Of a stretch of DNA of 61,852 nucleotides, positions 17,748 through 34,542 are shown piece after piece (the stretch's first letter is position 1; each line of letters starts with the position of its first letter). A model generated the notes under the pieces. The model was not told the DNA's origin, searched no databases, and saw nothing but the letters and a program-made list of their open reading frames with translations. The DNA lies in the NCBI GenBank assembly GCA_934695325.1, contig CAKUVD010000013.1, positions 1 to 61,852 on the forward strand, read 5' to 3'. The position numbers and the translations under genes are program-made. The stretch comes from an uncultured Bacteroidales bacterium (GTDB lineage: Bacteria; Bacteroidota; Bacteroidia; Bacteroidales; UBA932).

Positions 17748-17785
17748 TGTAAAATTAGTTTACAGGAATGTAAAGTTTCTTTACA
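17748..17785 (+). promoter_or_regulatory. Double-dyad enhancer-like element, copy 1
   Basis: Two TGTAAA-N5-TTTACA dyads are separated by GGAA (17748-17764 and 17769-17785). The same arrangement with spacer GGAT occurs at 31465-31502 upstream of the TolC-like gene. Both end 56 nt before a TGGCAC box. This looks like a tandem binding site for the NtrC-type regulator encoded at 23648. Confidence 0.7.
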
Positions 17786-17841
17786 TCACGTCAGATGCTT
17801 ACCGAAGCATAATGATTTATTAATCAAAGACATATATTGAG

Positions 17842-17857
17842 TGGCACAGTAGTGGAT
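17842..17857 (+). promoter_or_regulatory. Possible sigma-54 promoter of the exporter operon
   Basis: TGGCAC is the -24 half of a sigma-54 promoter; the -12 half is imperfect (GGA in place of TGC). The spacing to the double dyad (56 nt) equals that of copy 2, which supports it. The ATG follows at 17957. Confidence 0.4.
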
Positions 17858-17956
17858 ATCATTCGTCTCGGCACGGGGAATAGACGTCATCCCGTCGCCA
17901 GGAAGCTGTATGAAGGAATCGGACAGCAATAACAAGGACCTGTATAAGGACAGAAG

Positions 17957-20407
17957 ATGAATATATTTAACTACATAGCCTCGACTGTGAGGACATTGCC
18001 TATGAAGGGCAGGCGAAACGCCCTCAAGATATTGACACTCGGAATCGGGCTGTCAGTCGGCCTGGTGCTGACTTCCGAGGTCTGTTTCGAGCAGACATTC
18101 GATGACTTCTATGACGGCGCTGACCGCATATATTATCTGAATGAAGCAGTGGAACTTAACGGCTCCTACCGTGTGTTCTCATCAGTTTCCGGAGGAATGG
18201 CCCCGAAACTGAAGGAATACTTTCCGCAGATAGAGGACGCCACCAGGTTCACCTATATACAATATGAATCCACTGCCGTCCTGGAGGAGTCGGGAAGGCG
18301 CGTGAATGCAGGCCGGGCCTGTCTTGCCGATACCTCTCTGTTCAGGATTCTCGACCGTCCATGTCTCGCCGGAAACATTACCGGCTCGCTGGACATTGAA
18401 GGAAACGTGGTGATTTCATCATCGCTCGCCTCCAAGGTGACATCAGCATTGACCTCGGGCGGAAAGATGAACGAAAGAGCGGCGGCAGCCTCGGTTCTCG
18501 GCCGGAAATTCGCGCTTGCAGGCTACGATGGAGATGTGATGCTGACGATAAGCGGTGTCTATGAGGACTTTCCGCTCAACTCCAGCTATCGTCCGGATAT
18601 TGTGATTGCGATGCCGACCATAGGGCACTATATATGGGACGGCTCCGAGAATATGGTTGGGAACGATAGGTACAAAGGCTTTCTGAAACTGAGAAAGGGA
18701 GTTTCCATAGATGAGATTACAGGCGGAATGCAGGGCTTCAAGGAGAAATATCTCCCTCTGGAGGAGATGCGTGCGGCAGGTTTCGACCCGTATTATCCGG
18801 TAAAGCCTTTTATCAAGTATCATAACGAAGACGAGACGCAGCGTAACATGACACTCGTCCTGGCATTCGTCGCATTCGCCTTGCTGCTGACATCGATGCT
18901 GAACTATCTCCTTATCGTGCTGTCGTCCGCAGCGACCCGCGCCCGTGAGATGGCACTCCGCAAATGTCTGGGAAGCAGCAGAATGGACATCTTCGCTATG
19001 ATGTTCAGCGAGGCTCTGGTCCACACTATGCTCGCCGCCGCTCTCGCCGCAGTCTTGATCCTTGCGTTCAAGTCAATGATAGAGACCCTCCTAGGTGTCA
19101 ATGTCGCCGCCCTGTTCACCGGACGTCCGCTGGCATTGTCCATCGCCGTCATTGTCGTGCTCATTGCGCTGAACAGCATTGTCCCGACAGTCTTCTTCAA
19201 CAGGATTCCTGTGGCGACGGCATTCCGCAACTATCGCTCCGGCAGGCGTCTCTGGAAGCTCGGGCTGCTTGCCGTCGAGTTCGCGGCCGTGGTATTCCTG
19301 GCTGTCGTGATGGGCGTCATCTCTCTGCAATATGACAAGATGATGAATGCCGACCTGGGTTTCAAATATGACAAGGTGGCGATGGTCTCAATGCAGGAGG
19401 CTACCGATGCTCAGAAGAATACGCTTATGAATGAGATACGCGCGATGTCTGATGTCGATGATGCCGCGTTCTCCTACCAGTCGCCGTTCGACGGCTATTC
19501 AGGTGACAATGTAATGGTCCCTGGCGAGGAGCGTCAGCTGTTCAATGTGCGCGATGCCTACTATGTGGATGACCATTTCTTCAATGTGCTTGGAATAAAG
19601 ATCCGTGAGGGAAGCAACTTCGACCCGACTCTGAATGCCGATGCGGAAGTGATTGTGGACAGAAATTTCATCGAGACAATGAAGAAGGCAGCAGGATGGG
19701 ACGAAGTGCTTGGCCGCGAGGTCGAGGTGACGTCACATAACAGTAATGGCCCGACAAGGATATGCGGAGTCATTGACGACATACATACAGGAGGATTTTC
19801 GGTGGAGGAAACCGGGTTCAGTGGCCGTCCTATGGCTATATTCTATTGCAACCCTGAAAGGTCAGCATTATGGTTCTCAAATATCTTCATAAAGTATCAT
19901 AAGATGTCGCCTGAGGTACTGCAGCGCACGGATGAAATCGTGAAGAAGGTCCTTGACGGGCAGGCGTACAAGCTTATGCCTTGCAGCGAGATGTCGGCGA
20001 TGCTTTACGAGGACACGCTGAACACTAGGAACGCGATTCTCGCCGGCGGCATCGTGACCCTCTTCATCGCCCTCATCGGGCTGGTCGGCTATACCATTGA
20101 CGAGGTTCGCAGGCGCAGCAAGGAAATCGCCGTGCGTCGAGTGAATGGCGCCCAGTTCGGGCAGATAAGGTCAATGTTCTTGCGCGATGTTATGGCCGTG
20201 GCCATGCCGTCAGTGGCTGTGGGAAGCGTGCTTGCCTACATCGTGGCAGGCAGATGGGAGCATAACTTCAGCATCCAGGCAGGGCTTCCGTGGTGGCTCT
20301 TCGTAGTGGCGACAGTATCAGCGCTCGTCATAGTGGCCGTAGTATCAGATATCTATGTGCTGAAGACAGCAGGCTCCAACCCTGCTGAAAGCATCAAGAC
20401 AGAGTAA
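17957..20407 (+). CDS. ABC transporter permease (MacB/FtsX type)
   Basis: The protein is 816 residues. The start is MNIFNYIASTVRTLPMKGRR, then one membrane helix and a large periplasmic MacB-core region with SYRPDIVIAMPT. Two FtsX-like membrane blocks follow: around residues 295-440 (AFALLLTSMLNYLLIVL with REMALRKCLG) and at the end (ALIGLVGYTIDEVRRRSKEIAVRRVNGA). It is the first gene of an operon with an ABC ATPase and a second permease, and most likely forms part of a mechanotransmission-type exporter. The substrate is unknown. It is expressed from the element at 17748-17857. Confidence 0.9.
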   Translation: MNIFNYIASTVRTLPMKGRRNALKILTLGIGLSVGLVLTSEVCFEQTFDDFYDGADRIYYLNEAVELNGSYRVFSSVSGGMAPKLKEYFPQIEDATRFTYIQYESTAVLEESGRRVNAGRACLADTSLFRILDRPCLAGNITGSLDIEGNVVISSSLASKVTSALTSGGKMNERAAAASVLGRKFALAGYDGDVMLTISGVYEDFPLNSSYRPDIVIAMPTIGHYIWDGSENMVGNDRYKGFLKLRKGVSIDEITGGMQGFKEKYLPLEEMRAAGFDPYYPVKPFIKYHNEDETQRNMTLVLAFVAFALLLTSMLNYLLIVLSSAATRAREMALRKCLGSSRMDIFAMMFSEALVHTMLAAALAAVLILAFKSMIETLLGVNVAALFTGRPLALSIAVIVVLIALNSIVPTVFFNRIPVATAFRNYRSGRRLWKLGLLAVEFAAVVFLAVVMGVISLQYDKMMNADLGFKYDKVAMVSMQEATDAQKNTLMNEIRAMSDVDDAAFSYQSPFDGYSGDNVMVPGEERQLFNVRDAYYVDDHFFNVLGIKIREGSNFDPTLNADAEVIVDRNFIETMKKAAGWDEVLGREVEVTSHNSNGPTRICGVIDDIHTGGFSVEETGFSGRPMAIFYCNPERSALWFSNIFIKYHKMSPEVLQRTDEIVKKVLDGQAYKLMPCSEMSAMLYEDTLNTRNAILAGGIVTLFIALIGLVGYTIDEVRRRSKEIAVRRVNGAQFGQIRSMFLRDVMAVAMPSVAVGSVLAYIVAGRWEHNFSIQAGLPWWLFVVATVSALVIVAVVSDIYVLKTAGSNPAESIKTE

Positions 20408-20438
20408 AGAATATAGACAATAAAAAACATACAATATT

Positions 20439-21119
20439 ATGATCAAGATTACAAACATCTGCAAGGTCTTCAGGACCGAGGAAATCGAGACAGTCGCTCT
20501 CGACAATGTATCATTCGAAATCAAGGACGGCGAATTCGTCTCCATTATGGGCCCGTCAGGATGCGGAAAATCCACGCTCCTTAACATCCTCGGCCTGCTG
20601 GACAATCCTACATCCGGCAGCTACCAGCTTCTCGGACAGGAAGTTGCGCAGCTCAAGGAAAAGGAGCGCACCAAGTTCCGCAAGGGAAACATCGGCTTCG
20701 TGTTCCAGAGCTTCAACCTTATCGACGAGCTCAATGTCTACGAGAACATTGAACTTCCACTAAGATATATGGACTTCAGCGCAGCCGAGCGCAAGGAGAA
20801 GGTCGAGGCGGTGATGGCACGTATGAACATCAGCCACCGGGCAAAGCATTTCCCGCAGCAGCTCTCCGGAGGTCAGCAGCAGCGCGTCGCCATCGCCCGC
20901 GCCGTAGTCGCCAACCCTAAACTGATACTCGCCGATGAGCCTACCGGAAACCTCGACTCCAAGAACGGCAAGGAAGTTATGGACCTGCTCTGCGAACTTA
21001 ACCGCGAGGGCACGACCATCGTGATGGTGACCCACTCCCAAAAGGATGCGGCAATGGCGCAGCGCACCATCGACCTGTTCGACGGGCATATTGTCAGCGA
21101 TGTAAAAAACGAACTGTAA
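20439..21119 (+). CDS. ABC transporter ATP-binding protein (MacB/LolD type)
   Basis: The protein is 226 residues with Walker A MGPSGCGKSTLL, Q-loop FVFQSFNLIDEL, signature LSGGQQQRVAIARA, Walker B LILADEPTGNLD and an H-loop MVTHS. This set is typical of ATPases that serve FtsX-type permeases. It sits 31 nt after the first permease and 3 nt before the second, so the three products likely assemble as one exporter. The third permease at 34543 has no ATPase of its own and may share this one. Confidence 0.95.
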   Translation: MIKITNICKVFRTEEIETVALDNVSFEIKDGEFVSIMGPSGCGKSTLLNILGLLDNPTSGSYQLLGQEVAQLKEKERTKFRKGNIGFVFQSFNLIDELNVYENIELPLRYMDFSAAERKEKVEAVMARMNISHRAKHFPQQLSGGQQQRVAIARAVVANPKLILADEPTGNLDSKNGKEVMDLLCELNREGTTIVMVTHSQKDAAMAQRTIDLFDGHIVSDVKNEL

Positions 21120-21122
21120 ATA

Positions 21123-23540
21123 ATGAAATATCTTTTTCATAATTTTATTAGCACGTTGAGGCGGTACAGGATGTCGAGCCTGCTGAACATCATCGGTATG
21201 GCTGTGGCATTCTCGGCATTCTACGTGATAATGACGCAGGTCTGCTGGAACTTCAGCTACAACAAGTCTCTGAAGGATGCCGACAGGACATTCGTCATAT
21301 CTCTGCCGTCCCAGTACAACCCGGGCAAATACAATATCTGGGTATGCAGACCGCTGGCTGAAGCTATGGTATCAGGATCTTCTTCAGTGGAGTCCGGCGG
21401 GCTGTATGAAACCTTCAAGTCAGATAAGGAGTCTCTCTGCTGGACAAGAAAAGACGGTGTTCCCGTCAAGATGCACCTGGACTTGAGCCAATTCTCTTCA
21501 GGAAGCATCAAAGCATTGAATTTCAGCGCCGTAGAAGGATCTATGGACGGCCTCTCCAAGCCTGGGACTATCGCTTTGTCTGAATCCTTTGCGAAGAAGA
21601 ACAGACTGACGATAGGTGACCGGATCTCGTGGCAGGACCCGGAAGGCGAACAGAATGCCCAGGAGATTGTCGCGATCTATGCTGATTTCCCCGAGAACTC
21701 TGACCTGGGAATGACCAATGCCATATATGACATAAAGGACAATGGCATAGATGACAATTCCGAATGGTCATACAACTATATCGTCAAGCTATATGACAAG
21801 TCGCTGAAAGAGGAGTTCGAGAAGGACTGCGACAAGTTTGTAAGAGAATATATAGAGAAATTATATGACGGCAGCGGCGCAGATGAAGCCGAACTTGACG
21901 AAATCAGCAGCGGGGTAAAAGTCAAGCTTGTATCTCTTTCGGACATTTTTTACTCGCAGGAACTTGACGGGACGCCCGGACGCAGAGGCAACAAGACCAC
22001 GGATATGACTCTGCTTGCAGTGGCGATACTCACCATCCTCATCGCCCTGATAAACTTCGTCAATTTCTTCTTCGCACTGGTTCCCGCACGTCTTCGCTCC
22101 GTGAATACATACAAGATTTTCGGGGTATCGCGTACTGCATTGGTCCTTAACTTTATATTTGAGTCGGTCGGACTCGTCGTGATTGCACTTGCACTGTCCG
22201 CATTGGCAGTACTCCTGTTTATGCGCACCTCGGCCGCCGGAATCCTGACGGCACCGGTGTGGGGCAATGCCCTCGTGCTCTGGATGACTATCGGGGCTGC
22301 GGTCGTGACAGCAGTCGTGGGCAGCATATATCCTGCGCTCTACATAACCTCATTCCAGCCGGCTCTCGTGCTGAAAGGCTCGTTCAGCGGCTCCGCTGCC
22401 GGGAGAAGTCTGCGCAACACACTGATTTGCTTTCAGTTCGTTATTTCTATGTCGCTCATCATCTGTGCCATGTTCATCAGAATGCAGCACACATATATGA
22501 TGAACTACGATATGGGATTCGACAAGTCACATCTGCTCAGCGGAAAGATGCCTTACGGACTTTGCTGGTACGGCTCGCAGAACGAGGCGTTCGAGGACAA
22601 GCTCCGCAGCAACCCTGACATCCTGGACATCACATGGGCTGACGGCAAGATTGTGAACACATCCAGAATGGGCTGGGGACGGGATTACAAGGGTGAAAGC
22701 ATAAACTTCCAGTGCTATCCGGTCGCATACAACTTCCTGAGTTTTATGGGAATCGATATAGTAAAAGGACGTAATTTCACGAAGTCTGACGAGCTTTCAG
22801 ATGGCGGCACGATGATATTCAATGAGCAGGCACAGAAGGAATTCGACATTGACCTGGAGACCCCTGCACCCGGGCACGTGGACGGCAGCATAACAGCCGG
22901 AATCTGCAAGGACTTCAACTTCAAGCCTCTGCAGTACGGTCGCGACGCCTTTGCATTCTATGTGTTCGGAAAGAACAGATGGCGTAGAGGCCTTCAGCAG
23001 ATTTATGTCAGGACCGCGCCGGGGGCTGATGTCCGTGCCGTGATAAAGTTCATCCTTGACACGGTTAAGGAGATGCGTCCGGATGTGGATCCGGAGCTGT
23101 ACTACATTGACTTCTTCGAACAGGAGCTCGGCGCCCAGTATAAGCAGGAAAGCCGCTTGTCAATGCTCATAAGCATATTCACAATGATAGCGATAATCAT
23201 CTCGCTGATGGGAGTCTTCGGCCTGGTGCTGTTCGACACTCAGCACAGAAGCCGCGAGATTGCAGTGAGACGTGTGATGGGCGGAAGCATCGGCGACATC
23301 ATCAGGATGTTCAATGCCAAGTATATACGCATTGTCCTGGCCGGTTTTGTCATCGCCGCTCCGCTGAGCTGGTGGATTGTCCGCCGCTACTTTGCCGGGT
23401 TTGCATATCATACTGCCATAAGCTGGTGGGTATTCGCAGTCGCATTGCTGATTGTGCTCGCAATCACTGTGCTTATCGTGACACTCCGAAGTTTGAAGGC
23501 CGCCACATCGAACCCTGTAGAGCAACTGAAGAACGATTAG
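21123..23540 (+). CDS. ABC transporter permease (MacB/FtsX type)
   Basis: The protein is 805 residues. It starts with YLFHNFISTLRRYRMSSLL and a membrane helix (NIIGMAVAFSAFYVIM), then a periplasmic domain. Membrane helices near residues 290-430 and a second N-terminal-like helix (LICFQFVISMSLIICAMFI) follow. The terminal FtsX block reads LISIFTMIAIIISLMGVFG with REIAVRRVMGGS and ends in SNPVEQLKND. The C-terminal SNPVE/SNPAE signature is shared with the first permease. A strong terminator follows at 23563, closing this part of the operon. Confidence 0.9.
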   Translation: MKYLFHNFISTLRRYRMSSLLNIIGMAVAFSAFYVIMTQVCWNFSYNKSLKDADRTFVISLPSQYNPGKYNIWVCRPLAEAMVSGSSSVESGGLYETFKSDKESLCWTRKDGVPVKMHLDLSQFSSGSIKALNFSAVEGSMDGLSKPGTIALSESFAKKNRLTIGDRISWQDPEGEQNAQEIVAIYADFPENSDLGMTNAIYDIKDNGIDDNSEWSYNYIVKLYDKSLKEEFEKDCDKFVREYIEKLYDGSGADEAELDEISSGVKVKLVSLSDIFYSQELDGTPGRRGNKTTDMTLLAVAILTILIALINFVNFFFALVPARLRSVNTYKIFGVSRTALVLNFIFESVGLVVIALALSALAVLLFMRTSAAGILTAPVWGNALVLWMTIGAAVVTAVVGSIYPALYITSFQPALVLKGSFSGSAAGRSLRNTLICFQFVISMSLIICAMFIRMQHTYMMNYDMGFDKSHLLSGKMPYGLCWYGSQNEAFEDKLRSNPDILDITWADGKIVNTSRMGWGRDYKGESINFQCYPVAYNFLSFMGIDIVKGRNFTKSDELSDGGTMIFNEQAQKEFDIDLETPAPGHVDGSITAGICKDFNFKPLQYGRDAFAFYVFGKNRWRRGLQQIYVRTAPGADVRAVIKFILDTVKEMRPDVDPELYYIDFFEQELGAQYKQESRLSMLISIFTMIAIIISLMGVFGLVLFDTQHRSREIAVRRVMGGSIGDIIRMFNAKYIRIVLAGFVIAAPLSWWIVRRYFAGFAYHTAISWWVFAVALLIVLAITVLIVTLRSLKAATSNPVEQLKND

Positions 23541-23562
23541 TTTAACATAGATATTTTTTGTC

Positions 23563-23600
23563 GCCGCGCCCAGCCTGTGAAGGTCCGGCGCGGCTTTTTT
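23563..23600 (+). terminator. Rho-independent terminator after the permease genes
   Basis: GCCGCGCC (23563-23570) pairs with GGCGCGGC (23587-23594), followed by six T. The downstream regulator gene therefore has its own promoter, whose -33 box overlaps the T run. Confidence 0.85.
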
Positions 23601-23629
23601 GTTTCTATGGCCGAAAAAACGTATTTTTG
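23598..23629 (+). promoter_or_regulatory. Promoter of the NtrC-like regulator gene
   Basis: TTTG (23598-23601), a 20-nt spacer and TATTTTTG (23622-23629) match the Bacteroidetes consensus. The ATG follows at 23648. It lies directly behind the terminator, so regulator and kinase can be made without the exporter. Confidence 0.6.
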
Positions 23630-23647
23630 TATCAAACGAATGTGACA

Positions 23648-24978
<1,331 letters not shown>

Positions 24979-24982
<4 letters not shown>

Positions 24983-26208
24983 GCCTTCTTGTGACAGCGG
25001 CATTGACAGAACCCGGCATAATTGCGCTGGGGATGGCCGTCGTCGCAGCATTGACCTGCCTTGTGACGAAAGCCCTGGTCCGGCGAAAGATTATCAGTAA
25101 GATAGATTTTATGTCGGATGCGCTGGACAGCGGCGAATCTGCGTTCCGTTATTCCGAGCGGATGTGGGCCGACCGTAGGCTGAACCGCTCGCTGAACCGC
25201 CTTCGGTCGATTTTCGAGGCTGAAAAGAACGATATCCGCGAGCGCGAAAGATATTTCGGGGCAATGCTGGACCACGTCCGGAGCGGCGTCATTGTCCTGG
25301 ACGGGGAACGGATTGACTACTCCAACACTGTCGCCAGGGGGCTGTTGGGAGTAGCCGACATCTCTTCTATGCGGCAGGTGGAGCGCATCTCCCCGGAACT
25401 GGCGGATGCTTTCCGCAATGCGTCAGAGACAGAGTCCAGGGCATCTCTGACATCGGAGCGAGGAGAGGTGCAACTATCCATAAGTTCTTGTCCTGCAATG
25501 CTCCACGCAAAGAATGTCCGCATCGTCACTTTCAATGACATCACGCACGAGATGGAGAACAATGAGACCGAGTCCTGGACCCGCCTCATCCGTGTGCTGA
25601 CGCACGAGATAATGAATACTGTCACGCCTATCGCCACGCTCAGTTCCGCATTGTCGCAGAACCTGGAAGGCTACGACGAGGACGATATCCGCTCCGCTCT
25701 GGGAACCATAGCCTCGTCCTCCGAAGGACTCATCAGTTTCGTGCAGTCATACCGCTCGCTGACGCATATCTCCGCTCCTGTGCGCAAGGCGTTCTATTTC
25801 AGGGATCTGGCCAATGATTCCGTCACTATCGCCAAGGCTAACTGGCCTTCTGTCAATGTCTCGTATCGTGAACTGTCCGATGACGTGATTCTCTATGCCG
25901 ACTATGGGCAGGTGTCTCAGGTCCTGAACAATCTTGTAAAGAATGCCGTGCAGGCTGGGGCGTCAAATGTCAGCATAACGGCTTCCATAGACAAGCGCGA
26001 CAAGGTGGTCATAGATGTGGCAAATGACGGAGAGCCGATAAGCAAGGCCAGCCAGGAGCAGATATTCGTTCCGTTCTTCACGACGAAAGGCTCGTCCGGA
26101 ACCGGTGTCGGACTGAGCCTCTGTCGCCAGATGATCCGCCTGAACGGCGGCACCATCAAACTCTCGTCAAGTAATCCTGATTCGACTGTATTTACGATTG
26201 TATTGTAG
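24979..26208 (+). CDS. Sensor histidine kinase (NtrB-like) partner
   Basis: The protein is 409 residues. One N-terminal membrane segment (about residues 10-32) is followed by a coiled stretch, a PAS-like domain (YFGAMLDHVRSGVIVLDGER), phosphorylation-site helix VLTHEIMNTVTPI (His), and an ATPase domain with NNLVKNAVQAG (N box), NDGEPI and FFTTKGSSGTGVGLSLC. No sizeable periplasmic loop is seen, so the signal is probably sensed in or at the membrane. It is translationally coupled to the regulator gene (ATGA overlap at 24979-24982). Confidence 0.92.
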
Positions 26209-26214
26209 GAAGTT

Positions 26215-27081
26215 CTACTTCACGACACCGTCAGAGGAAATTCTTACCTTTATCTCTGAGTCTCCCTTCTCAAGCTCTATCACATACCAGCTTCCGGAAG
26301 GCGTATCGACATACTCTGCATCGTCGATTCTCCAAGACGGATAGTCAGCATTGATCCTATCGGTCACAGCTGTCGGCAATTCAGACTTGCGGACGTCCCA
26401 TTCGGTGCGGATCCACGTCCTGTCAATGCTGAAGTACACGTCTTTTCCTTTTCTCTCGTGCACGATTTCCACTTCTATCGCATTGTCATCATATTCTATA
26501 TCCATTATGACTGCGCCAGGATATTTTGTGCCGACCAGATTCCTTATTTCTGATTCGATGTCTGAAGGAAGGTAGTCTTCGTAGTCATAATCAGGGTCTT
26601 CGTCCAGGACTGCCTTTATGATGACCCCGTCTGCGGAGAAGTAGATGTCCGCCTCTTTTTCGACGTTCCCGGAGCGAGTCTCGACTTCAATGACATAGAT
26701 GATTTCCATTCCCGCTCTCTCGAGTCTGTCGATGTCATCTATTCTCCAGTTTGCGTACTCGCTGGAAGAGAATGCTTTCTTGACTGCCTCCGGCAGCATT
26801 TCATACGTTATCTCGCTTTCTGTCATACACCATTTGCCGGTACTGCTGAACCACGCGGCGTAGTCGTGTCCGGACGATGCTGAGCGTGTTGCCGGCATAT
26901 TGAATTTGGCGACGAAGTAGCCGTTCTTAGAAGTCCATTCCACATCCGTGGCGGCTGGATAGCGCTCTGTTAGTCCAGCTTTTGCCGAAGCGTTGATACC
27001 GTCGTTGTCTGCTGTGGCTTTATTGCAGCCTGCAAGTGTCATCAGGCAGATGCACATTGCTGTAATAAAAAAGTTCTTCAT
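26215..27081 (-). CDS. PepSY-like periplasmic lipoprotein with repeated domains
   Basis: The protein is 288 residues from MKNFFITAMCICLMTLAGCN (ATG 27081), with a lipobox LAGC. About three repeats follow, each with a W-[RD]-x-D or V-E-W strand, long acidic beta stretches and a phrase such as VYFSIDRTWI or IYFSADGVIIKA. These are typical of the PepSY-like family (DUF2874) of Bacteroidales. It is encoded downstream of a smaller PepSY-like gene and the OmpR-type two-component pair. It is therefore likely part of their regulon or a periplasmic inhibitor or modulator. The exact activity is unknown. Confidence 0.75.
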   Translation of the reverse strand: MKNFFITAMCICLMTLAGCNKATADNDGINASAKAGLTERYPAATDVEWTSKNGYFVAKFNMPATRSASSGHDYAAWFSSTGKWCMTESEITYEMLPEAVKKAFSSSEYANWRIDDIDRLERAGMEIIYVIEVETRSGNVEKEADIYFSADGVIIKAVLDEDPDYDYEDYLPSDIESEIRNLVGTKYPGAVIMDIEYDDNAIEVEIVHERKGKDVYFSIDRTWIRTEWDVRKSELPTAVTDRINADYPSWRIDDAEYVDTPSGSWYVIELEKGDSEIKVRISSDGVVK

Positions 27082-27148
27082 AATAATATGATTTTTGAAA
27101 GTTGATCTTAAATTCGTGTACCTCAAGAATTTCTCTTGAATGAGGAAC

Positions 27149-27601
27149 TTATCTGTCAATGCCGATGAGGGCTCCTCGGCTGTCGAATTTCAGTTCCAGC
27201 CCATTGTCCAGTTCTGTCTCAACCTCGCTGTCATCACGTTCGGCTTTGGTGATGAATGAATCCGGATACAGTTCATTGATCTTGGCCGTGATTTGTGCAG
27301 GTATTATCCCACTGGGAATTTCCGCACGGTGCCTGTCGATTTCCTTCCATTCTCCGTTCCGGCGGAATTCCAGTTTCGTCCCGTCCGTGAGGAGTATTTC
27401 GTAGGTCATCTTCAGAAAGTCCCTGTCCTGTTTGGCGAAAGCTATCTTTTCTCCAGGAAAATTAGTTCCGATGAATGTCAGGACCTTATCCGGAAGCGTG
27501 TCCGGCTGTACGGCCTTGTCATAGACAAGGTTGGTCAGATAATACCCGGCTGCACCTGCGAGTGCCAAAGCCGCCGTGGCGATTATGATTTTTTTCAGCA
27601 T
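27149..27601 (-). CDS. PepSY-like protein, membrane-anchored
   Basis: The protein is 150 residues. An N-terminal hydrophobic anchor (IIIATAALALAGAAGYYL) is followed by two PepSY-like units: ILLTDGTKLEFRRNGEWKEID, and a second unit with YPDSFITKAERDD and GLELKFDSRGALIGID. It faces the periplasm. It sits between the kinase gene (24 nt upstream) and the larger PepSY-like lipoprotein gene (67 nt downstream), all on the minus strand, so the four genes likely form one operon. Confidence 0.75.
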   Translation of the reverse strand: MLKKIIIATAALALAGAAGYYLTNLVYDKAVQPDTLPDKVLTFIGTNFPGEKIAFAKQDRDFLKMTYEILLTDGTKLEFRRNGEWKEIDRHRAEIPSGIIPAQITAKINELYPDSFITKAERDDSEVETELDNGLELKFDSRGALIGIDR

Positions 27602-27625
27602 TGTATCTTTTTTTGCGAAATTACA

Positions 27626-28924
27626 TTATGATTCTGAAATGAATCTGGAATTATTGAATGACAATCTGAATATATGTATACCATTGATGAACGAATATGA
27701 CAATTCCATTCCGCTTCTGTCTGCGACAGCCTTGGACAAGGCCAGTCCGAGGCCGGTGGAGCCTTCCTTCTTGGATCCTTGGTAGAATCTGTCGAAGATT
27801 CGGGTACCGTCCAATGCAGAATCGCCGCTGTTCGCTATGGTCAATGCTTCCGGGGTCAATGTAATCGTGATTTCGCCGCCTTCCTTGCTGTGTACGAATG
27901 CGTTCTTTATCAGGTTGGAAACGAGTACTGTCGCCAGTGTCTCGTTCATCCGGATATGAACACTTTGAGCCTGGGGCTCCAGGTGGCAGCTGATATCCTT
28001 TCCGGTGAATACCTCAGAGTAGATTTCCTTCTGGTGCATCACAAGGCTGGTAAGATCTACGTCGCTGATTTCAGGGAACTGTCCGTTGTCGATCTTGGTC
28101 ATAAGCAGCAACGTCTTGTTCAGTCTGGAGATATGCCCGATCTCGCGTTTCATCTGTATGAGCTCGCCCATATTCTCCTCGCCGAGAGCATCATTGTCCA
28201 GCATCAAGTCTATACGATTTCCGAGTACGGCGAGAGGTGTCTGCAATTCGTGTGAAGCGTTGCCGATGAACTGTTTCTGATTTTCGAACGCCTCGTCCGA
28301 ACGCTCAACCGCATCCCTTGCCGCCTTTTCCAATTGTCTGAATTCGTCAATGTCGGTATTTACGGAGAGTATGCCGTGAGAATGGCACGGTGTATATGAA
28401 TTGAGCCAGTCCAGAATGGAGTAGAAAGGTTTCATACTTTTCTGGAACACGGCCAATGTAACGACTACTACTGTGAATATCAGGATGATATATAAGGCAA
28501 GCAGCCACCATAGGATGGTTTCTATCAGGTCGTCCTTCTCGAATGTAGGCGTGGATACGATCAGTTCGAAGTATCGTCCTTCCTTGTCACGGAAAATGGT
28601 CTTCAGGAACCTGGCAGGCTCGGTCTCGTCTGTCTCCTGGATGTAGAAGTCGGCGTCATAGTATTCCATACCAGGGTGCGAGTCGGCGTAAGACTCCGCC
28701 ACCTGCGAGATGCTGTAGTGCCCGTCCGTCATAATGTTTGTCACAGGCAGTTCGTGCCCGGACAGTTTCTTGACCATCAGCTGTTCCGCATAGCTTTCCA
28801 GAAGGTCGTCAGCTTCATCGTTGATTTCATCGACCATCACGAAGTAGAAAACCATCGCCCATAGCGCAATGACGGGCATAAGGGCCAGCGACAGCCGGAT
28901 TGCGAGGTTGTCAATCAGTTTCAT
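27626..28924 (-). CDS. Sensor histidine kinase (OmpR-system partner)
   Basis: The protein is 432 residues. Two membrane helices (about residues 9-31 and 138-160) enclose a periplasmic sensor of about 105 residues. Then come the HisKA helix FIGNASHELQTPLAVL (phospho-His) and an ATPase domain with SNLIKNAFVHS, IANSGDSAL and STGLGLALSKAVAD. Its ATG overlaps the stop of the response regulator gene. The periplasmic loop may be read by, or compete with, the PepSY-like proteins encoded downstream. Confidence 0.93.
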   Translation of the reverse strand: MKLIDNLAIRLSLALMPVIALWAMVFYFVMVDEINDEADDLLESYAEQLMVKKLSGHELPVTNIMTDGHYSISQVAESYADSHPGMEYYDADFYIQETDETEPARFLKTIFRDKEGRYFELIVSTPTFEKDDLIETILWWLLALYIILIFTVVVVTLAVFQKSMKPFYSILDWLNSYTPCHSHGILSVNTDIDEFRQLEKAARDAVERSDEAFENQKQFIGNASHELQTPLAVLGNRIDLMLDNDALGEENMGELIQMKREIGHISRLNKTLLLMTKIDNGQFPEISDVDLTSLVMHQKEIYSEVFTGKDISCHLEPQAQSVHIRMNETLATVLVSNLIKNAFVHSKEGGEITITLTPEALTIANSGDSALDGTRIFDRFYQGSKKEGSTGLGLALSKAVADRSGMELSYSFINGIHIFRLSFNNSRFISES

Positions 28925-29604
28925 ACCGCCTTTTGCACGAGTTTGTATCCGAATCCATAGACAGACTTTATCTCGACATCCGCCCCGGCTTCCTCAAGTT
29001 TTTTTCTCAGGTTCTTGACCTGTGAGTATATGAAGTCGAAATTGTCTGCAAGATATATGAAGTCTCCCCAGACGGCTTCCGCAAGGACTGACTTGTCCAC
29101 CATATGCTCAGGCCTTGATATGAAGTAATTGAGGATGTCATACTCTTTTTTCACCAGGGGCAGAGCCTTTCCTCCTACTTCGGCAGTCCGCCGGTCCTGG
29201 TCCAGCATTATGTTCCCGAATGTGATCAGACTTCTTCCTGTTCCGTTGCTTCTTCGGATGACGCTTTTGACACGTGCGAGAAGCTCGGCCATATGAAATG
29301 GCTTCGGCAGATAGTCGTCTGCACCTTCTTCAAGTCCGAGTACCTTGTCTTCCAATGAATTGCGTGCTGAGATTATAATCACGTTAGGAGCCTTTCCCTC
29401 GGTCTTGAATGTCTTGAGCAGATCCAGTCCGTTTCCGTCCGGCAGCATAATGTCCAGAAGTATGCAGTCGTAGGTGAACATTTCAAGCCTTTCGCAAGCC
29501 TCATCGTATGTGGCAGCCTCTTCCACGACATATTGCTCTTTCTTCAGGGCTCTGGATATAAGCTCCCGCAGCGCATTCTCGTCCTCTATTATCAATACTT
29601 TCAT
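28921..29604 (-). CDS. OmpR/PhoB-family response regulator
   Basis: The protein is 227 residues. The receiver has DD pair IIEDENALR, phospho-acceptor Asp in DCILLDIMLPDGNGL, and Lys in DYLPKPF. The C-terminal winged helix has LVKKEYDILNYFISRPEHMV and VKNLRKKLEEAGADVEIKSV, with YGFGYKL. It is the first gene of the operon with the kinase and two PepSY-like genes. The gene is divergent from the monooxygenase-like gene at 29713. Confidence 0.95.
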   Translation of the reverse strand: MKVLIIEDENALRELISRALKKEQYVVEEAATYDEACERLEMFTYDCILLDIMLPDGNGLDLLKTFKTEGKAPNVIIISARNSLEDKVLGLEEGADDYLPKPFHMAELLARVKSVIRRSNGTGRSLITFGNIMLDQDRRTAEVGGKALPLVKKEYDILNYFISRPEHMVDKSVLAEAVWGDFIYLADNFDFIYSQVKNLRKKLEEAGADVEIKSVYGFGYKLVQKAV

Positions 29605-29712
29605 TGTATTTCCGCAAAGTTTCCGTAAAAATACAAAGTAAATCTGAAAAGAAACTGAAAAGAGAAGCTCCTATTCAGTAATCCTTAAAAAATAACTTGA
29701 ACTTTTTTTGGC

Positions 29713-30045
29713 ATGCATTCTCCCCATTGGATGTTCGTAGAATTGGAAAGAATTCGCGCCTCAAAATATCTTGACGAATATATTCGATATGCCACCGAGG
29801 TCGGAGAAGTCTCATTGCGGATTGAGCCAGGCGTGCTGACGATGTATGCAGTTTCCGAAAAGGACCCTCCTTGGATGGTTACTATTCTGGAACTTTACGC
29901 GAGCAATGAGTCTTACGGAAAGCACATTGAATCGGAACATTTCCTAAGATACAAAAACGAGACAGAGCATATGGTCAAGTCGCTGGTACTGTCAGATCAG
30001 ACGCCTCTGAACAAGGCGAACATAATCAGCAACTTCATTCAATGA
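29713..30045 (+). CDS. Antibiotic biosynthesis monooxygenase (ABM)-like domain protein
   Basis: The protein is 110 residues, a single alpha/beta ferredoxin-like domain as in YgiN and related ABM proteins. Matching blocks are YIRYATEVGEVSLRIEPGVL, VTILELYASNESYGKHIES, and HFLRYKNETEHMVKSLVL with the conserved D-x-x-P-L end. ATG 29731 (MFVELERIR) could also be the start. Members can act on quinols or only bind small ligands. The substrate is not predictable here. Confidence 0.7.
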   Translation: MHSPHWMFVELERIRASKYLDEYIRYATEVGEVSLRIEPGVLTMYAVSEKDPPWMVTILELYASNESYGKHIESEHFLRYKNETEHMVKSLVLSDQTPLNKANIISNFIQ

Positions 30046-30052
30046 CGAGGAT

Positions 30053-30265
30053 TCACTCGTCATACTCGTCATCCACAGGCAGGATAATGTCGGGGTGAAG
30101 GAATTGTAATTGGGTAGTTTTGTCCGGCGAAAGAAGATTATCCCGGACATATTGTTCAAAACACAATCCCATAGAGCATAGACTGTTCTCGCAGATAACC
30201 CGAAGCTGGAGCGGTGCTCCGCTCCTATCACTCGAGGATGCCGCCAGACAGGCTGCCGAAACCAC
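30053..30265 (-). pseudogene. Possible C-terminal remnant of an unknown gene
   Basis: The region 30046-30357 holds no complete gene. On the minus strand a frame reads VICENSLCSMGLCFEQYVRD, then NLLSPDKTTQLQFLHPDIIL, and ends PVDDEYDE, which looks protein-like. Its first 20 or so residues do not, and no ribosome site is seen. It is probably the tail of a lost gene. The family is unknown. Confidence 0.25.
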
Positions 30266-30357
30266 GACATCTAAAGGGCTTAATTTTTACCAAGTTATTT
30301 TTTAATGTTTACTCAGTAGAAGCTTCTCCAAAAGCCGGGCCGAGTCCGTTTGAAGGC

Positions 30358-31038
30358 CTAATGCCTTACGACATCGTACCGCAGCCAGACTGTACCTGCA
30401 TTGGCACGCTCCACACTTTTCAGATTGAGGTGAGTGAGCGGCTGATTCATCTGGAGCCCGTCGAACACTGCCGCCATTCCCTTGCGGCCGTCGATTCCGG
30501 AGCCGATCATCACGCTGACTTCGTCAAGCAGGCCTGCCGCGAGAAAGCCGCCATTGATGTGACCGCCGCCGACAACAGCCATCCTGCGCACCCAGAAATT
30601 GTCGCTCAGAGTCTCCACCAGGCGGTTAAGGTCAATGCTGCCCTTTCCTGTCGCAATCCATGATATTCCTTGTCTGGTCAATGCCTCCAGGTATTCTGCG
30701 GCGCAGTCTTCGCATACAGCTACGAGAAGCGGTCTGCCTTCGTAATGATTCGACGGCCAGCGGAGCTTTCCGTGAGTATCCATCGCCACAGAATAGCCGT
30801 CAGCCTTGGCGGCGATGTGGAAAGCCTCCTTTCCGAGTGGCGTGTTGTCCGTGGCAACGAACTGTTCTCCGTCAGCGAAATGCATCTGCATAGTGACTCT
30901 TCCTGCCAGCTGTGTCGGGCATTCCAGTTTGTCCAGTGCATCATAATAAATGTTGCTCGGCTCCATCTCTTCCGTCATCGTGCAGTCAATCCTGCCGTCC
31001 ACGGAGCTCATCATATGACATATAATGTAAGGCCTCAT
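30358..31038 (-). CDS. RibD C-terminal / dihydrofolate reductase-like family protein
   Basis: The protein is 226 residues. The N-terminus RPYIICHMMSSVDGRIDC is the NADPH-binding start of the RibD_C fold. Further family blocks are QGISWIATGKGSIDLNRLVE, VVGGGHINGGFLAAGLLDE and VMIGSGIDGRKG. Stand-alone members of this family are NADPH-dependent reductases, and some act on pyrimidine intermediates. Without riboflavin genes nearby the role stays open. It is encoded just upstream of the deleted SDR gene's 5' region, convergent with nothing obvious. Confidence 0.8.
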   Translation of the reverse strand: MRPYIICHMMSSVDGRIDCTMTEEMEPSNIYYDALDKLECPTQLAGRVTMQMHFADGEQFVATDNTPLGKEAFHIAAKADGYSVAMDTHGKLRWPSNHYEGRPLLVAVCEDCAAEYLEALTRQGISWIATGKGSIDLNRLVETLSDNFWVRRMAVVGGGHINGGFLAAGLLDEVSVMIGSGIDGRKGMAAVFDGLQMNQPLTHLNLKSVERANAGTVWLRYDVVRH

Positions 31039-31130
31039 ATTGTATTTTGTTATTTTTAAATCTTGATATCCAGCTGTTTATAGCTTTAAATTCATCATCG
31101 TGGCCGCCTATGGCGCAACCGGAAGGACTC

Positions 31131-31355
31131 TTATTGTATCTGTGGTTTCAGCGGGCCATAGAAATAGGATGCTGTGGCGCCGCCGTCCATCAGGAAGTCG
31201 GAACCTGTGACGAACGCGCCCATAGGGCTCATCAGAAGCTCGGCGGCATTGGCCTTCCGCCTGTCGCCGATTACGATTTTCATCCCATAGCCGAGTCTGC
31301 GGGCGATTGCCATCCCGATCTGTCCAGCCCCGGTAAGTATCATTACGTCTTTCAT
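31131..31355 (-). pseudogene. SDR-family oxidoreductase with large internal deletion
   Basis: The frame from ATG 31355 is only about 74 residues, but it joins the two ends of a full SDR. The cofactor-binding start is DVMILTGAGQIGMAIARRLG plus KIVIGDRRKANA. This is fused directly to a typical SDR C-terminus, AELLMSPMGAFVTGSDFLMD then GGATASYFYGPLKP. The middle of about 190-200 residues, with NAG, Ser and YxxxK active-site motifs, is gone, yet the reading frame is kept. It is almost certainly inactive as an oxidoreductase. Confidence 0.8.
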
Positions 31356-31464
31356 ATCTATAGCGATCTGAATTTCACGATGCAAATTTACATCACGGAC
31401 TCATTTCCGTGCATATCTGCGTTACTTGTCATTGTACCATATTTACGTTCACTGGCCGACACGG

Positions 31465-31502
31465 TGTAAAACAAATTTACAGGATTGTAAAATATCTTTA
31501 CA
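31465..31502 (+). promoter_or_regulatory. Double-dyad enhancer-like element, copy 2
   Basis: Two TGTAAA-N5-TTTACA dyads are separated by GGAT (31465-31481 and 31486-31502), the same architecture as 17748-17785. It ends 56 nt before TGGCAC at 31559 and 98 nt before the TolC-like start codon. Confidence 0.72.
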
Positions 31503-31557
31503 TCTCCATTCGACAAAGAAACAAGGTTACTAATTAAGAATCAAATAGTTACATATA

Positions 31558-31574
31558 TTGGCACGTGTAATGCT
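31558..31574 (+). promoter_or_regulatory. Sigma-54 promoter of the TolC-like operon
   Basis: TTGGCACG followed by TGTAATGCT matches the -24/-12 consensus with the correct GG to GC spacing (12 nt). A transcript would start near 31583, 18 nt before the ATG. Confidence 0.6.
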
Positions 31575-31600
31575 GCATACTAGGCACAAACAGACAGATT

Positions 31601-33076
31601 ATGAGATATGAAATTATGATATCAGCGCTTATGCTTGCGGCGATGCAGTCCGCAAACGGGCGGCAGGCAGTAGGCGGGCCGCAGGCGGGCACCGTCCTGG
31701 AGGCCGCAGATACGCTGGATGTTATAGAACTACAGGACTTCAAGGAGGCACAGACGGTCTCGGATACACAGAAAGTCCCTGAGCAGCAGAAAGCCGAAAA
31801 GACATTGACCTTGCGCGAATGTATGGAGTATGCGGTCAGCCATTCCACACAGGTGCGCATACAGCAGTCCAGGAACGATGATGCGCGACTTGACAGACGT
31901 GATGCGATACTCGACGCCTTCACCCCGCAGGTGGATGGAAATTCCTATGGATATTACAGATGGGGCCGCTCCATCGACCCGGAGACCAACACCTATGTCA
32001 CCACGACATCGTTGAACCAGGGATTCTCAGTCTCGGCCGGATTCTCTCTGTTCAACGGATTCTCGGCCATAAACAACCTGAAGATCGCCAAGACATCCGT
32101 GGCAATGGGGACTACCCAGGAGCAGCAGGAGAAAGACAAGGTATGCCTCGCGACAATTGAGGCATATTTCAATGTGCTGTATTTCACGCAGTTGTCAGAC
32201 ATTCTCTCGGAGCAGGTGGAGAATGCGAGACGTGCGGTGGCTCTTGCCGAAAGGCAGGAGGAGCTGGGATCCAAGGGCTATGCCGATGTCGTGCAGATGA
32301 AAGCAGACCTGGCCGACCGAGAATACGAGTTCACATCGGCGAGGAACAGCAGGGACAATGCCATTACGACTCTGGAGGATGTAATGTTCTGGCCCACGGA
32401 TGAAAAGCTGGTCATTGACACAGACCTTTCAGCATTGGCACTGGTAGTTGGAGCGACCTCCACGACAGAAGAAATCATAGGAAACGCATTGACCTCGATG
32501 CCGTCGGTCTTGGTCGCGAAGGGGACGATGGACAATGCTCTTCTCAGCCTCCGCACCGCCAAGTGGCAGTTCCTGCCTTCACTCGGCCTTTATGGAGGGT
32601 GGTCCACAAGCTACTACACTTATCCGGGGCAGGCTGGTTACACCCCTACGCCTTACTGGCATCAGTTCAAGAACAACGGAGGAGAATATGTCCAGTTGTC
32701 ATTGAACATTCCTATCTACGACAGGCTTCAGAAGCATACGAGCCTGGCCAGGAGGCGCAATGCCTACCAGCGTTCAAGTATGGAATACGACAAGTCTCTC
32801 CGGGACGTGGAATCGGAAGTGCGCCGTGCCGTGCAAGACAGGGACGGGGCCGAGGCGGCATTGCTTCAGGCAGACAGACGTGCGGAAGTCTATGACGAGG
32901 CTTTCAAGCTGAACGCCCGCAAGTTCGAGCAGGGGCTGATTTCCTCCATCGAATATAACACAGCCTCGTCCAACTATCTCAAGGCTCGTGCGGAAAGGCT
33001 CAATGCGGAACTTCAGTATCAGCTTAAACGTCGCGTAGTGGAGTATTACAACGGTGTGCCGTATCTGGCGCAATAA
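31601..33076 (+). CDS. TolC-family outer-membrane efflux channel
   Basis: The protein is 491 residues with a signal peptide (ISALMLAAMQSANG). The N-terminus of the mature part is extended, followed by KTLTLRECMEYAVSHSTQV, the classical opening of TolC repeats. Two helical repeat halves follow, with LAERQEELGSKGYADVVQMK and RKFEQGLISSIEYNTASSNY as the twin conserved turns. It forms a trimeric outer-membrane tunnel. The adaptor and a permease are encoded directly downstream, so it completes the exporter whose ATPase and other permeases lie at 17957-23540. Confidence 0.93.
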   Translation: MRYEIMISALMLAAMQSANGRQAVGGPQAGTVLEAADTLDVIELQDFKEAQTVSDTQKVPEQQKAEKTLTLRECMEYAVSHSTQVRIQQSRNDDARLDRRDAILDAFTPQVDGNSYGYYRWGRSIDPETNTYVTTTSLNQGFSVSAGFSLFNGFSAINNLKIAKTSVAMGTTQEQQEKDKVCLATIEAYFNVLYFTQLSDILSEQVENARRAVALAERQEELGSKGYADVVQMKADLADREYEFTSARNSRDNAITTLEDVMFWPTDEKLVIDTDLSALALVVGATSTTEEIIGNALTSMPSVLVAKGTMDNALLSLRTAKWQFLPSLGLYGGWSTSYYTYPGQAGYTPTPYWHQFKNNGGEYVQLSLNIPIYDRLQKHTSLARRRNAYQRSSMEYDKSLRDVESEVRRAVQDRDGAEAALLQADRRAEVYDEAFKLNARKFEQGLISSIEYNTASSNYLKARAERLNAELQYQLKRRVVEYYNGVPYLAQ

Positions 33077-33173
33077 TAGATAATAGCGGATCATAAACAG
33101 ATTGCCATCCAAAAACGTGCAGAATGAGGTTCAGAACTGTCTGGCAATCAAGAACGAATGAAAAAAGCAAACT

Positions 33174-34433
33174 ATGGACAAGATAATCGAAAAGAAAAAA
33201 GGACTTGCGGCGGCATTCACGAGAAACGCCGTGAAATACTGGGCCGGGGCAGCATTGGCATTGGTGCTCGTCATCTTGATAATTACGGGGAAGGGCTCGG
33301 CTCTGAGAGTAGACGGAAGCACGATGATTACCGGCGAGGCCAGGCGCGGTGAGTTCAATGACTATATCCGTGTGAGTGGCCAGGTGCAGCCGATGACCAC
33401 AGTCCAGCTCAGCCCGACCGAAGGCGGCAATGTCCAGAGAATCGTCACGGAAGAGGGAAGCAAAGTCAATGCAGGCGATGTCATAGTCGAGCTTTCCAAT
33501 GAGAACCTGGATATGCAGATCCTGAACTCCGAGGCCGAACTCGCAGAGAAGGAGAACATCTTGCGCAACACGATGATTTCCATGGAGCAGCAGAAACTGT
33601 CCGTGAGACAGGACAGGCTTTCCCTCCAGCTGGAGGTGCGCAGGGCGAAAAGGTCATACGAACAGAACAAGGCCTTGTACAATGAAAAGCTCATCGCCAA
33701 GGAAGACTACTTGAAAGCGGCTGAGGATTACGAACTTGCAAAGGACAAGCTTGAGCTCGTGGTGGACCGCGAACGCCAGGACAGCCTCTACCGCAGCACA
33801 CAGATTTCCCAGATGCACGAGAGCCTGGAGAACATGAGGATCAACATGAACATGATACGCAAGCGCAAGGAGAACCTTTCCGTCAAGGCTCCCATAAGCG
33901 GAGAACTCGGCCTGCTGGACGTCGAACTCGGACAGTCAGTAGCCGCAGGAGCCAAGATCGGTCAGGTCAACGACCTTGATTCATATAAGATAGAGGCTCA
34001 GATCGACGAGCATTATATCGACAGGGTCACTCCAGGGTTGGAAGCGACATTCGAGAGGCAGAACGAGAAGTATTCCGCCGCCATCCGCAAGGTGTACCCG
34101 GAAGTCCGCGACGGCAAGTTCAAGGCTGACTTCCGTTTCACAGGACAGCAGCCGGAGAATATCCGCACAGGACAGACCTATTACCTGAACCTGCAGCTCG
34201 GCCAGCCTGCCGAGGCGATCATCATCCCTCGCGGCTCGTTCTACCAGACTACCGGCGGCAAGTGGGTGTATGTCGTCAATGCTGACGGCACCAGGGCTGT
34301 AAAGCGCAGCGTGCGCATCGGCAGGCAGAATCCTCAGTATTATGAGGTCCTGGAGGGCCTGGAGCCGGGCGAGAAAGTCATCATATCTTCATACGAAAGC
34401 TTCGGAGACAATGACGAACTGATTATTAAATAA
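33174..34433 (+). CDS. Periplasmic adaptor (HlyD/MacA-type membrane fusion protein)
   Basis: The protein is 419 residues. An N-terminal membrane anchor (residues about 22-40) is followed by the first lipoyl half (VSGQVQPMTTVQLSPTEGG), a long coiled coil rich in Glu/Lys/Gln (residues about 110-225), the second lipoyl half (VKAPISGELGLLDVELGQSV), and beta-barrel and membrane-proximal domains. It bridges the inner-membrane permease and the TolC-like channel. It lies 97 nt after the channel gene and 109 nt before the permease gene. Confidence 0.93.
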   Translation: MDKIIEKKKGLAAAFTRNAVKYWAGAALALVLVILIITGKGSALRVDGSTMITGEARRGEFNDYIRVSGQVQPMTTVQLSPTEGGNVQRIVTEEGSKVNAGDVIVELSNENLDMQILNSEAELAEKENILRNTMISMEQQKLSVRQDRLSLQLEVRRAKRSYEQNKALYNEKLIAKEDYLKAAEDYELAKDKLELVVDRERQDSLYRSTQISQMHESLENMRINMNMIRKRKENLSVKAPISGELGLLDVELGQSVAAGAKIGQVNDLDSYKIEAQIDEHYIDRVTPGLEATFERQNEKYSAAIRKVYPEVRDGKFKADFRFTGQQPENIRTGQTYYLNLQLGQPAEAIIIPRGSFYQTTGGKWVYVVNADGTRAVKRSVRIGRQNPQYYEVLEGLEPGEKVIISSYESFGDNDELIIK

Positions 34434-34542
34434 GTCCTATGCTGATTATCAATCAGTTGCTGGACCAGAAGCCCGGAATGATGAACTTTCGACTTAGTAA
34501 CTGCCTGATACCCAAGGGAAGTTTCCGAATAAAGTGAATACA

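Follow-up and report, generated by a model that had tools for sequence, protein, structure and literature searches.

A conserved double-dyad element before sigma-54-type promoters, and its probable NtrC-type activator, at a two-armed export locus of Bacteroidales

Two double-dyad elements at an export locus

The window analyzed here is a stretch of 61,852 nucleotides (contig CAKUVD010000013.1, assembly GCA_934695325.1) from an uncultured Bacteroidales bacterium of the UBA932 lineage. Our subject is a pair of 38-bp double-dyad elements in it, each preceding a sigma-54-type promoter and a group of export genes, and the NtrC-type regulator that, to judge from sequence comparisons, very probably acts through them (Table 1). 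The export genes lie in two arms: arm 1 (17957-23540) encodes a permease, an ATPase and a second permease, and arm 2 (31601-36876) a TolC-family channel, a periplasmic adaptor and a third permease. Between the arms lie the regulator and sensor kinase genes, which share the strand of the arms, and a set of genes in the opposite orientation: those for two PepSY-like proteins, for a second kinase together with an OmpR-type regulator (28921-29604), and for a RibD-like protein. An earlier note on this DNA, made from the sequence alone, had read the two arms and the regulator and kinase between them in the same way, and the profile matches agree with it. The likely start of the regulator gene is the ATG at 23648, inside a longer listed frame (23558-24982).

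Each element consists of two TGTAAA-N5-TTTACA dyads, and their positions and spacers (GGAA and GGAT) are exactly as the earlier note gave them. So is the distance of each to TGGCAC, the -24 half of the promoter: the gaps (17786-17841 and 31503-31558) are both of 56 nt and end at boxes that start at 17842 and 31559. When up to two mismatches are allowed, the single dyad occurs four times in the window, always perfect and always inside one of the two pairs. The bare count is weak evidence, because 1.33 dyads are expected at this tolerance and 3 of 100 shuffled sequences reach four; the weight of the dyad evidence rests on perfection, pairing and spacing, not on number. TGGCAC occurs 23 times on both strands together (1.9e-4 per position), so the equal spacing is unlikely to be an accident. 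With TGGCAC and TTGC boxes spaced as GG-N10-GC, arm 2 fits, and arm 1 is well matched at -24 only, in keeping with the earlier remark that the second copy alone has a fitting -12 half.

Table 1. Features of the window that bear on the export locus
Feature	Position	Strand	Description and basis
Arm 1 enhancer	17748..17785	+	Two TGTAAA-N5-TTTACA dyads, spacer GGAA, centers 21 bp apart; window sequence, layout recurs in relatives
Arm 1 sigma-54-type promoter	17842..17858	+	-24 TGGCAC good, -12 poor (TGGCACAGTAGTGGATA); compared with 74 related modules
permA	17957..20407	+	816-aa duplicated MacB/FtsX-type permease (ADOP-like); Pfam/NCBIfam profile matches
ATPase subunit	20439..21119	+	MacB/LolD/DarD kind; profile matches, 80-86% identity in six window-type relatives
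permB	21123..23540	+	805-aa duplicated MacB/FtsX-type permease; profile matches
Intrinsic terminator	23563..23600	+	Strong; GC-rich stem 23563-23594, then T run; fold -24.6 kcal/mol, z -4.41
Vegetative promoter of regulator genes	23599..23629	+	Bacteroidota type: TTG, 20 nt, TATTTTTG at 23622 (matches TAnnTTTG)
NtrC-type response regulator	23648..24982	+	Receiver, sigma-54 AAA+ domain with GAFTDA loop, Fis-type helix-turn-helix (HTH) with SRPTLY
Sensor histidine kinase	24979..26208	+	4-nt overlap with regulator
Arm 2 enhancer	31465..31502	+	Two TGTAAA-N5-TTTACA dyads, spacer GGAT; window sequence
Arm 2 sigma-54-type promoter	31559..31575	+	Both boxes (TGGCACGTGTAATGCTG); compared with 74 related modules
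TolC-family outer-membrane channel	31601..33076	+	Profile matches
Periplasmic adaptor	33174..34433	+	HlyD/MacA/DarC kind; profile matches
permC	34534..36876	+	About 780-aa duplicated MacB/FtsX-type permease; profile matches

The element in relatives: spacing and target genes

We scanned contigs of other genomes with the 38-bp double-dyad pattern alone (no promoter was part of the query) and found at least 143 sites in at least 119 stretches, mostly of Bacteroidales and many from ruminants. The counts that follow are among the matches listed. TGGCA lies 50-58 nt downstream of 105 of the 143 sites, and in 102 cases it starts at 53, 54 or 55 nt (52, 35 and 15 sites), where fewer than one would be expected (three positions in 286 directions at 1 in 1024). 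Distances of 108 nt (15) and 107 nt (8) come next in frequency; judged by eye, they probably mark the start codons of genes in a family that opens with ATGGCA. Gaps measure 52-56 nt (one of 50) where the spacer is 4 nt and 52-55 nt where it is 5 nt. In four stretches (L002, L015, L067 and L072) promoterless matches stand in overlapping or regularly spaced copies, that is, as repeat arrays.

Removal of 31 of the 105 modules as exact duplicates left 74 distinct ones, and in their alignment the -12 box has T at position 13 in 97% and G at position 14 in 99%, although neither was part of the query. The arm 1 box lacks this TG, and equal activation of the two arms is therefore doubtful. A gene like the exporter genes or the regulator of the window lies within 900 nt of 56 of the 74 modules; the dyad pairs are conserved, and in many relatives they stand before exporter genes of this type. 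The gene for sigma-54, rpoN, was found in all 18 relatives examined.

The other 18 modules comprise three contig ends and 15 different genes, seven of whose proteins were run against Pfam, the remaining eight being judged by eye from their translations. Two of the seven are GIN-domain (DUF2807) proteins and three are outer-membrane barrels or CarboxypepD_reg-like proteins; the other two are a GNAT acetyltransferase and a further MacB/FtsX permease. Modules stand 5' of secreted GIN-domain-like proteins at L003, L007, L023, L039, L061, L100 and L110 (of these, only L003 and L110 were compared with Pfam), and 5' of CarboxypepD_reg-like proteins at L041, L060, L061 and L101 (outer-membrane barrels at L060 and L101; L061 by eye). 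Three of the CarboxypepD_reg-like proteins and the GIN-domain proteins begin with a near-identical signal peptide, MAKKSFLTALL.

Co-occurrence with the regulator orthologue

Nine of ten relatives have one close orthologue of the regulator (58-64% identity; other long matches reach 35-43% and partial AAA+ matches 43-49%), and the tenth, G010, has a C-terminal fragment only (54%). For a broader comparison 149 genomes were drawn from the order of G001 (Bacteroidales), a genome chosen as the center because it bears the element. The regulator was found at E ≤ 1e-120 in 41 of these genomes and at E ≤ 1e-160 in 6, and the TGTAAA double dyad (up to two mismatches) in 4, all of them among the 6 that score best for the regulator. 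The same four contain the complete exact module of dyads and promoter. Patterns read backwards, as a control, matched 1 of 149 genomes for the TGTAAA search, 1 of 149 for the TGTCYA search described below and none for the complete module. With G001 excluded the association is 3 of 5 genomes against 0 of 143 (p 1.9e-5).

In a second sample the regulator reached E ≤ 1e-160 in 17 of 393 genomes, and among ten further genomes chosen by the regulator alone the double dyad was present in four. Of 20 genomes searched, 12 matched, but it was the element that had first led to 8 of the 20. The element adjoins the orthologue's own genes in G003 and G005. No regulator closer than 63-64% identity was met among the genomes sampled from the order; the closest regulator proteins, 94% identical, are known without genomic context. 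At L195 and L175 (upstream of TolC) an irregular, denser array of TGTAAA half-sites, instead of a clean double dyad, stands before a sigma-54 box.

Half-sites shift with the recognition helix

In the regulator tree the 15 window-type proteins, all with the recognition helix SRPTLY, make up a single clade (support 0.98), and ten further window-type regulators have SRPTLY as well. The 24 other aligned regulators at E ≤ 1e-120 (L145-L168) comprise 20 with RQT(L/I)Y, 3 with RPTLY and 1 with RTSLY. A search of the RQTLY loci that assumed nothing about the half-site recovered this double-dyad layout, at 53-55 nt, in five of them, with half-sites near TGTCYA. At position 4 of the half-site, A stands in 60 of 64 cases in the first class (25 loci), and C in 14 of 20 cases in the second (11 loci); this tally includes, in the first class, one probable false match and one irregular site, leaves out L187, L190 and L192, and uses a promoter pattern that does not fit arm 1 of the window. 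Sigma-54-like sites reaching the cut-off numbered 16 of 86 and 5 of 33, with null rates of 1.6% and 1.5%.

When the 149 genomes were searched for TGTCYA double dyads, again with no promoter in the query, five genomes matched, all with RQTLY regulators; two of the five (G115 and G131) had helped to define the pattern. TGGCA lies 55-56 nt downstream of seven of the eight TGTCYA double dyads, six of them at places not used in that definition. One match, L203 (G099), has no promoter and is probably due to chance. RPTLY goes with TGTAAA and RQTLY mostly with TGTCYA, at unchanged spacing.

In Prevotella-type genomes a separate NtrC paralogue adjoins TGTAAA double dyads (34-39% identity to the regulator, with SRPTLY). 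At eight such loci (L019, L031, L036, L046, L051, L064, L107 and L112) the double dyads lie just past the 3' end of the paralogue gene, and SRPTLY is seen in seven of the eight (L051 is not in the alignment). A sigma-54-like box lies about 88 nt away at L019 and 101 nt away at L046, as counted by eye.

The regulator family and its GAFTDA loop

The regulator matches Pfam PF00072, PF00158, PF25601 and PF02954 above cut-off (receiver, sigma-54 AAA+ domain and Fis-type HTH among them). Both the phospho-acceptor Asp (motif LLDMN in at least 37 of 39 sequences) and a partner kinase with overlapping frame are present, as befits an NtrC-type protein. Its sigma-54 contact loop reads GAFTDA, not GAFTGA, and the fifth residue is D in 38 of the 39 sequences, the window included, and H in one. 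In excerpts of a study of Escherichia coli NorR, the variant G266D, which has the same loop, is constitutive and still forms open complexes with sigma-54 polymerase (PMC2941729); what is a constitutive mutant in NorR is the natural state in the family of the window. DVU2106 of Desulfovibrio is listed with GAFTDA in the portion available of PMC4641369. Since the loop works in NorR and is listed for DVU2106, GAFTDA, so far as these excerpts go, does not exclude membership of the NtrC type.

Surveys have treated the motif with differing strictness. A 2011 survey, in its excerpted text, filtered on GAFTGA with some substitutions allowed (PMC3162934), and a 2025 survey, in the part available, calls GAFTGA invariant and kept only activators bearing it (PMC12316311). 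As worded there, the latter filter would drop the GAFTDA family, because it requires GAFTGA. The loop of the window regulator suggests that GAFTGA filtering of activators can lose a whole functional family.

A separate promoter for the regulator genes

A terminator between permB and the regulator parts arm 1 from the regulator genes; it is absent from the output of the terminator scanner, probably owing to a loop limit of 8. Behind it lies a putative vegetative promoter whose upstream TTG box we take to be part of the Bacteroidota vegetative type. Its second box matches TAnnTTTG, which is the sigma-A -7 box in the excerpted text of PMC9723704. Because the terminator insulates the genes and the promoter is vegetative, regulator and kinase are likely to be made at a steady level, and terminator and separate promoter led us to set aside positive feedback through transcription continuing from arm 1 into these genes. 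Self-activation of the regulator is likely in G003, because there a double-dyad element directly precedes the regulator gene.

On the minus strand between the arms (26215-29604), two adjacent PepSY-like proteins stand beside the second kinase and the OmpR-type regulator, together possibly a separate envelope-sensing unit.

Proposed mechanism and alternatives

The elements, their geometry and conservation, their target genes, the co-occurrence with the regulator and the shift of site with helix can all be read in the sequences compared. They support the suggestion of the earlier note that the dyads are the likely sites of the regulator, through conservation, near-fixed spacing, exporter targets, and the tracking of regulator and helix. 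We read the elements as sigma-54 enhancers because the promoter distance is near-fixed, because of the target genes and the co-occurring regulator, and because the architecture is kept with the other half-site. With considerable confidence we propose that through these enhancers the regulator-kinase pair activates both arms, which would encode a joint exporter or a small set of exporters, while the pair itself would be made from its own vegetative promoter. The two elements belong to a control module common to many relatives from animal guts, through which one regulator very probably switches on envelope export pumps together.

Binding, phosphorylation, activation and the joint working of the arms we infer as follows. 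The kinase encoded at 24979 would phosphorylate the regulator encoded at 23648, the pair being expressed from the promoter behind the terminator. Regulator dimers would bind both adjacent dyads and, because the dyad centers lie 21 bp (two helical turns) apart, two dimers would sit on the same face of the DNA. The bound dimers would form an AAA+ ring whose target would be the sigma-54 RNA polymerase bound at -24/-12, some 65 bp downstream from the center of the nearer dyad, and the ring would open the promoter. With both arms switched on, the products would make up one tripartite ABC exporter, or a small set with common ATPase, adaptor and channel. The signal, judging only from the target genes, is probably envelope or antimicrobial stress.

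Several findings weigh against this interpretation. Thirty-eight of the 143 sites listed have no TGGCA at 50-58 nt (the repeat arrays and Prevotella-type loci are among them), the gap of 56 nt in the window lies just beyond the 50-55 nt range of the 74 related modules, the window spacers differ from their commonest spacer (CCAC), the arm 1 -12 box is poor, and the loop is GAFTDA instead of GAFTGA. The strict double dyad was not found in six of the ten further window-type genomes, nor in G051 and G121. Near the regulator, G564 has a dyad pair with a 2-nt spacer, and G447 and G121 have denser or irregular half-site clusters (that of G447 precedes a sigma-54 box); no site was found near the regulator in G159, G530, G211, G584 and G051 (G159 and G584 being on short contigs). 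The window-type helix forms one clade, so the shift of helix and site amounts to one correlated change, and the strict TGTCYA search did not match G033, G035 and G069, which had also served to define the pattern. L095 and L097 (RQTIY) have TGTAAA dyads with TGTCAA sites nearby, no module was found near the three RPTLY regulators outside the clade (L187, L190 and L192), and the RQTLY loci L181, L185, L189, L193 and L194 have mixed TGTAAA-like and TGTCTA-like half-sites. The module of L184, with a score of 22, falls short of the 23 that marks the 99.9% level among random positions. In view of the mixed half-sites, the three regulators with no module nearby and the reversed pair L095/L097, we softened the idea of a strict one-to-one recognition code.

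It is unlikely that another regulator binds the enhancers, be it an NtrC-type paralogue or the OmpR-type regulator of the window. The Prevotella-type paralogue beside its TGTAAA double dyads indicates that the site is not confined to a single orthologue group, but among the genomes searched the element follows the close orthologue, the half-sites shift with the orthologue's recognition helix, the elements of G003 and G005 adjoin its own genes, and the 17-bp dyad has the shape of sites bound by Fis-type HTH proteins such as NtrC. As to the OmpR-type candidate, we know of no regulator of that type that activates sigma-54 promoters. We consider it highly improbable that the TGTAAA pairs are chance occurrences or mobile repeats with no function, as the promoterless repeat arrays might suggest; the near-fixed spacing to a two-box promoter, the specificity of the target genes and the linkage to the regulator argue otherwise.

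Whether the two arms make one machine is the less firmly settled part. Channel, adaptor, MacB-type permease and ATPase are all present across the arms, so that, on the genes alone, the parts of a tripartite ABC exporter are complete. G003 and G121 have regulator and kinase followed by TolC, HlyD, permease, ATPase and permease, and because these last five stand there in one run it is plausible, from gene order, that the window arms are a split version of one tripartite system. Identity to the window in G003 and G121 is 86% and 85% for the ATPase, 69% for the adaptor and 49% and 48% for the channel, and the two permeases best match permB and permC. No counterpart of permA was found in the stretches fetched from these two genomes; permA-like genes occur in G111, G006, G132 and G154. 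Three duplicated permeases of about 800 aa to one ATPase weigh against a single machine, and permeases of relatives stand under separate elements (among the matches listed); a single ATPase, adaptor and channel serving alternative permeases would fit just as well. Separate machines under common control, with arm 1 channel-less (like LolCDE or YbbAP) and arm 2 served by an ATPase from elsewhere, are a real possibility with the balance against it. Each permease contains two FtsX stretches (Pfam), its nearest model being the ADOP duplicated permease, below cut-off, so that one permease with a pair of ATPase subunits could be a full transporter, and a permease is the best gene match within 900 nt in 25 of the 74 modules listed. 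The joint runs of G003 and G121, with their closely similar ATPase and adaptor, speak for a shared system, as does the lack of a second ABC ATPase among the 18 other window proteins given to Pfam, a UvrA-like protein aside.

Of the earlier note's reading as a whole, the enhancer core stands; it needs correction for the terminator-insulated promoter of the regulator genes and the poor arm 1 -12 box. Its single machine is favored by the single runs and disfavored by the three permeases per ATPase and the missing permA counterpart, and as to its joint switching, equal activation is in doubt.

More tentatively, at a little short of an even chance, we envisage a sigma-54 envelope-export regulon across much of Bacteroidales, with activators that naturally bear GAFTDA (in NorR the substitution that lifts repression), a TGTAAA or TGTCYA-like specificity that differs by clade in step with P or Q in the helix at fixed geometry, and targets that include GIN-domain surface proteins and outer-membrane barrels. 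If so, these targets beyond the pumps would point to an envelope-stress response of Bacteroidales, and if the pumps respond to antimicrobial compounds, to a coordinated defense of gut and rumen Bacteroidales. To our knowledge, little has been learned in Bacteroidota about the pairing of activators with sigma-54 promoters; the present case allows a site, a spacing rule, a regulator family and a target set to be named, and the regulon can be mapped across many genomes by simple sequence searching.

Comparison with known systems

With NtrC/glnA, ZraR, AtoC and QseF/GlrR the window system has in common a receiver-AAA+-Fis HTH regulator with a kinase, and inverted repeats 5' of a -24/-12 promoter. 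The NtrC site is a 17-bp inverted repeat of the same shape as the 17-bp dyad of the window, and the NtrC sites of E. coli glnA lie about 32 bp apart. The window system differs in its half-site (TGTAAA), in dyads that are directly adjacent (21 bp from center to center) and in its GAFTDA loop, and in the NtrC-family comparison with NCBIfam the best 25 of 81 matches are all below cut-off.

No title or abstract opening that we found, in a literature mostly outside subscription papers, names the enhancer, its spacing or its activator. The 2025 survey, in its excerpted text, predicts by promoter matrix a sigma-54 regulon of Bacteroidia that includes FtsX/COG0577 permeases and claims first evidence for it (PLoS One, PMC12316311); the same text names neither an enhancer site nor a cognate activator. 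In Flavobacterium psychrophilum, sigma-54 promoters were mapped by their start sites, with targets that include envelope-stress functions; among the targets in the excerpts, chaperones, proteases and gliding or exported proteins predominate, and no activator site is given (PMC9723704).

The exporter resembles DarBCD and MacAB-TolC, and is no member of either proper: DarB, DarC, DarD, MacA and MacB equivalog matches are all below cut-off (adaptor to DarC 205 bits, ATPase to DarD 289, permeases to DarB 96, 62 and 49, against cut-offs of 450, 375 and 700). MacA is the nearest solved structure to the adaptor, and permC weakly matches 3is6 (an unnamed ABC permease), YknZ and MacB. Unlike those systems, the window has ATPase and permease on separate chains, three permeases and two transcription units. 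The parts are of known kind, and the wiring and the target set look new; the shift in regulator-site specificity and the loop variant are, on the sequences compared, interesting features of a conserved module of known kind.

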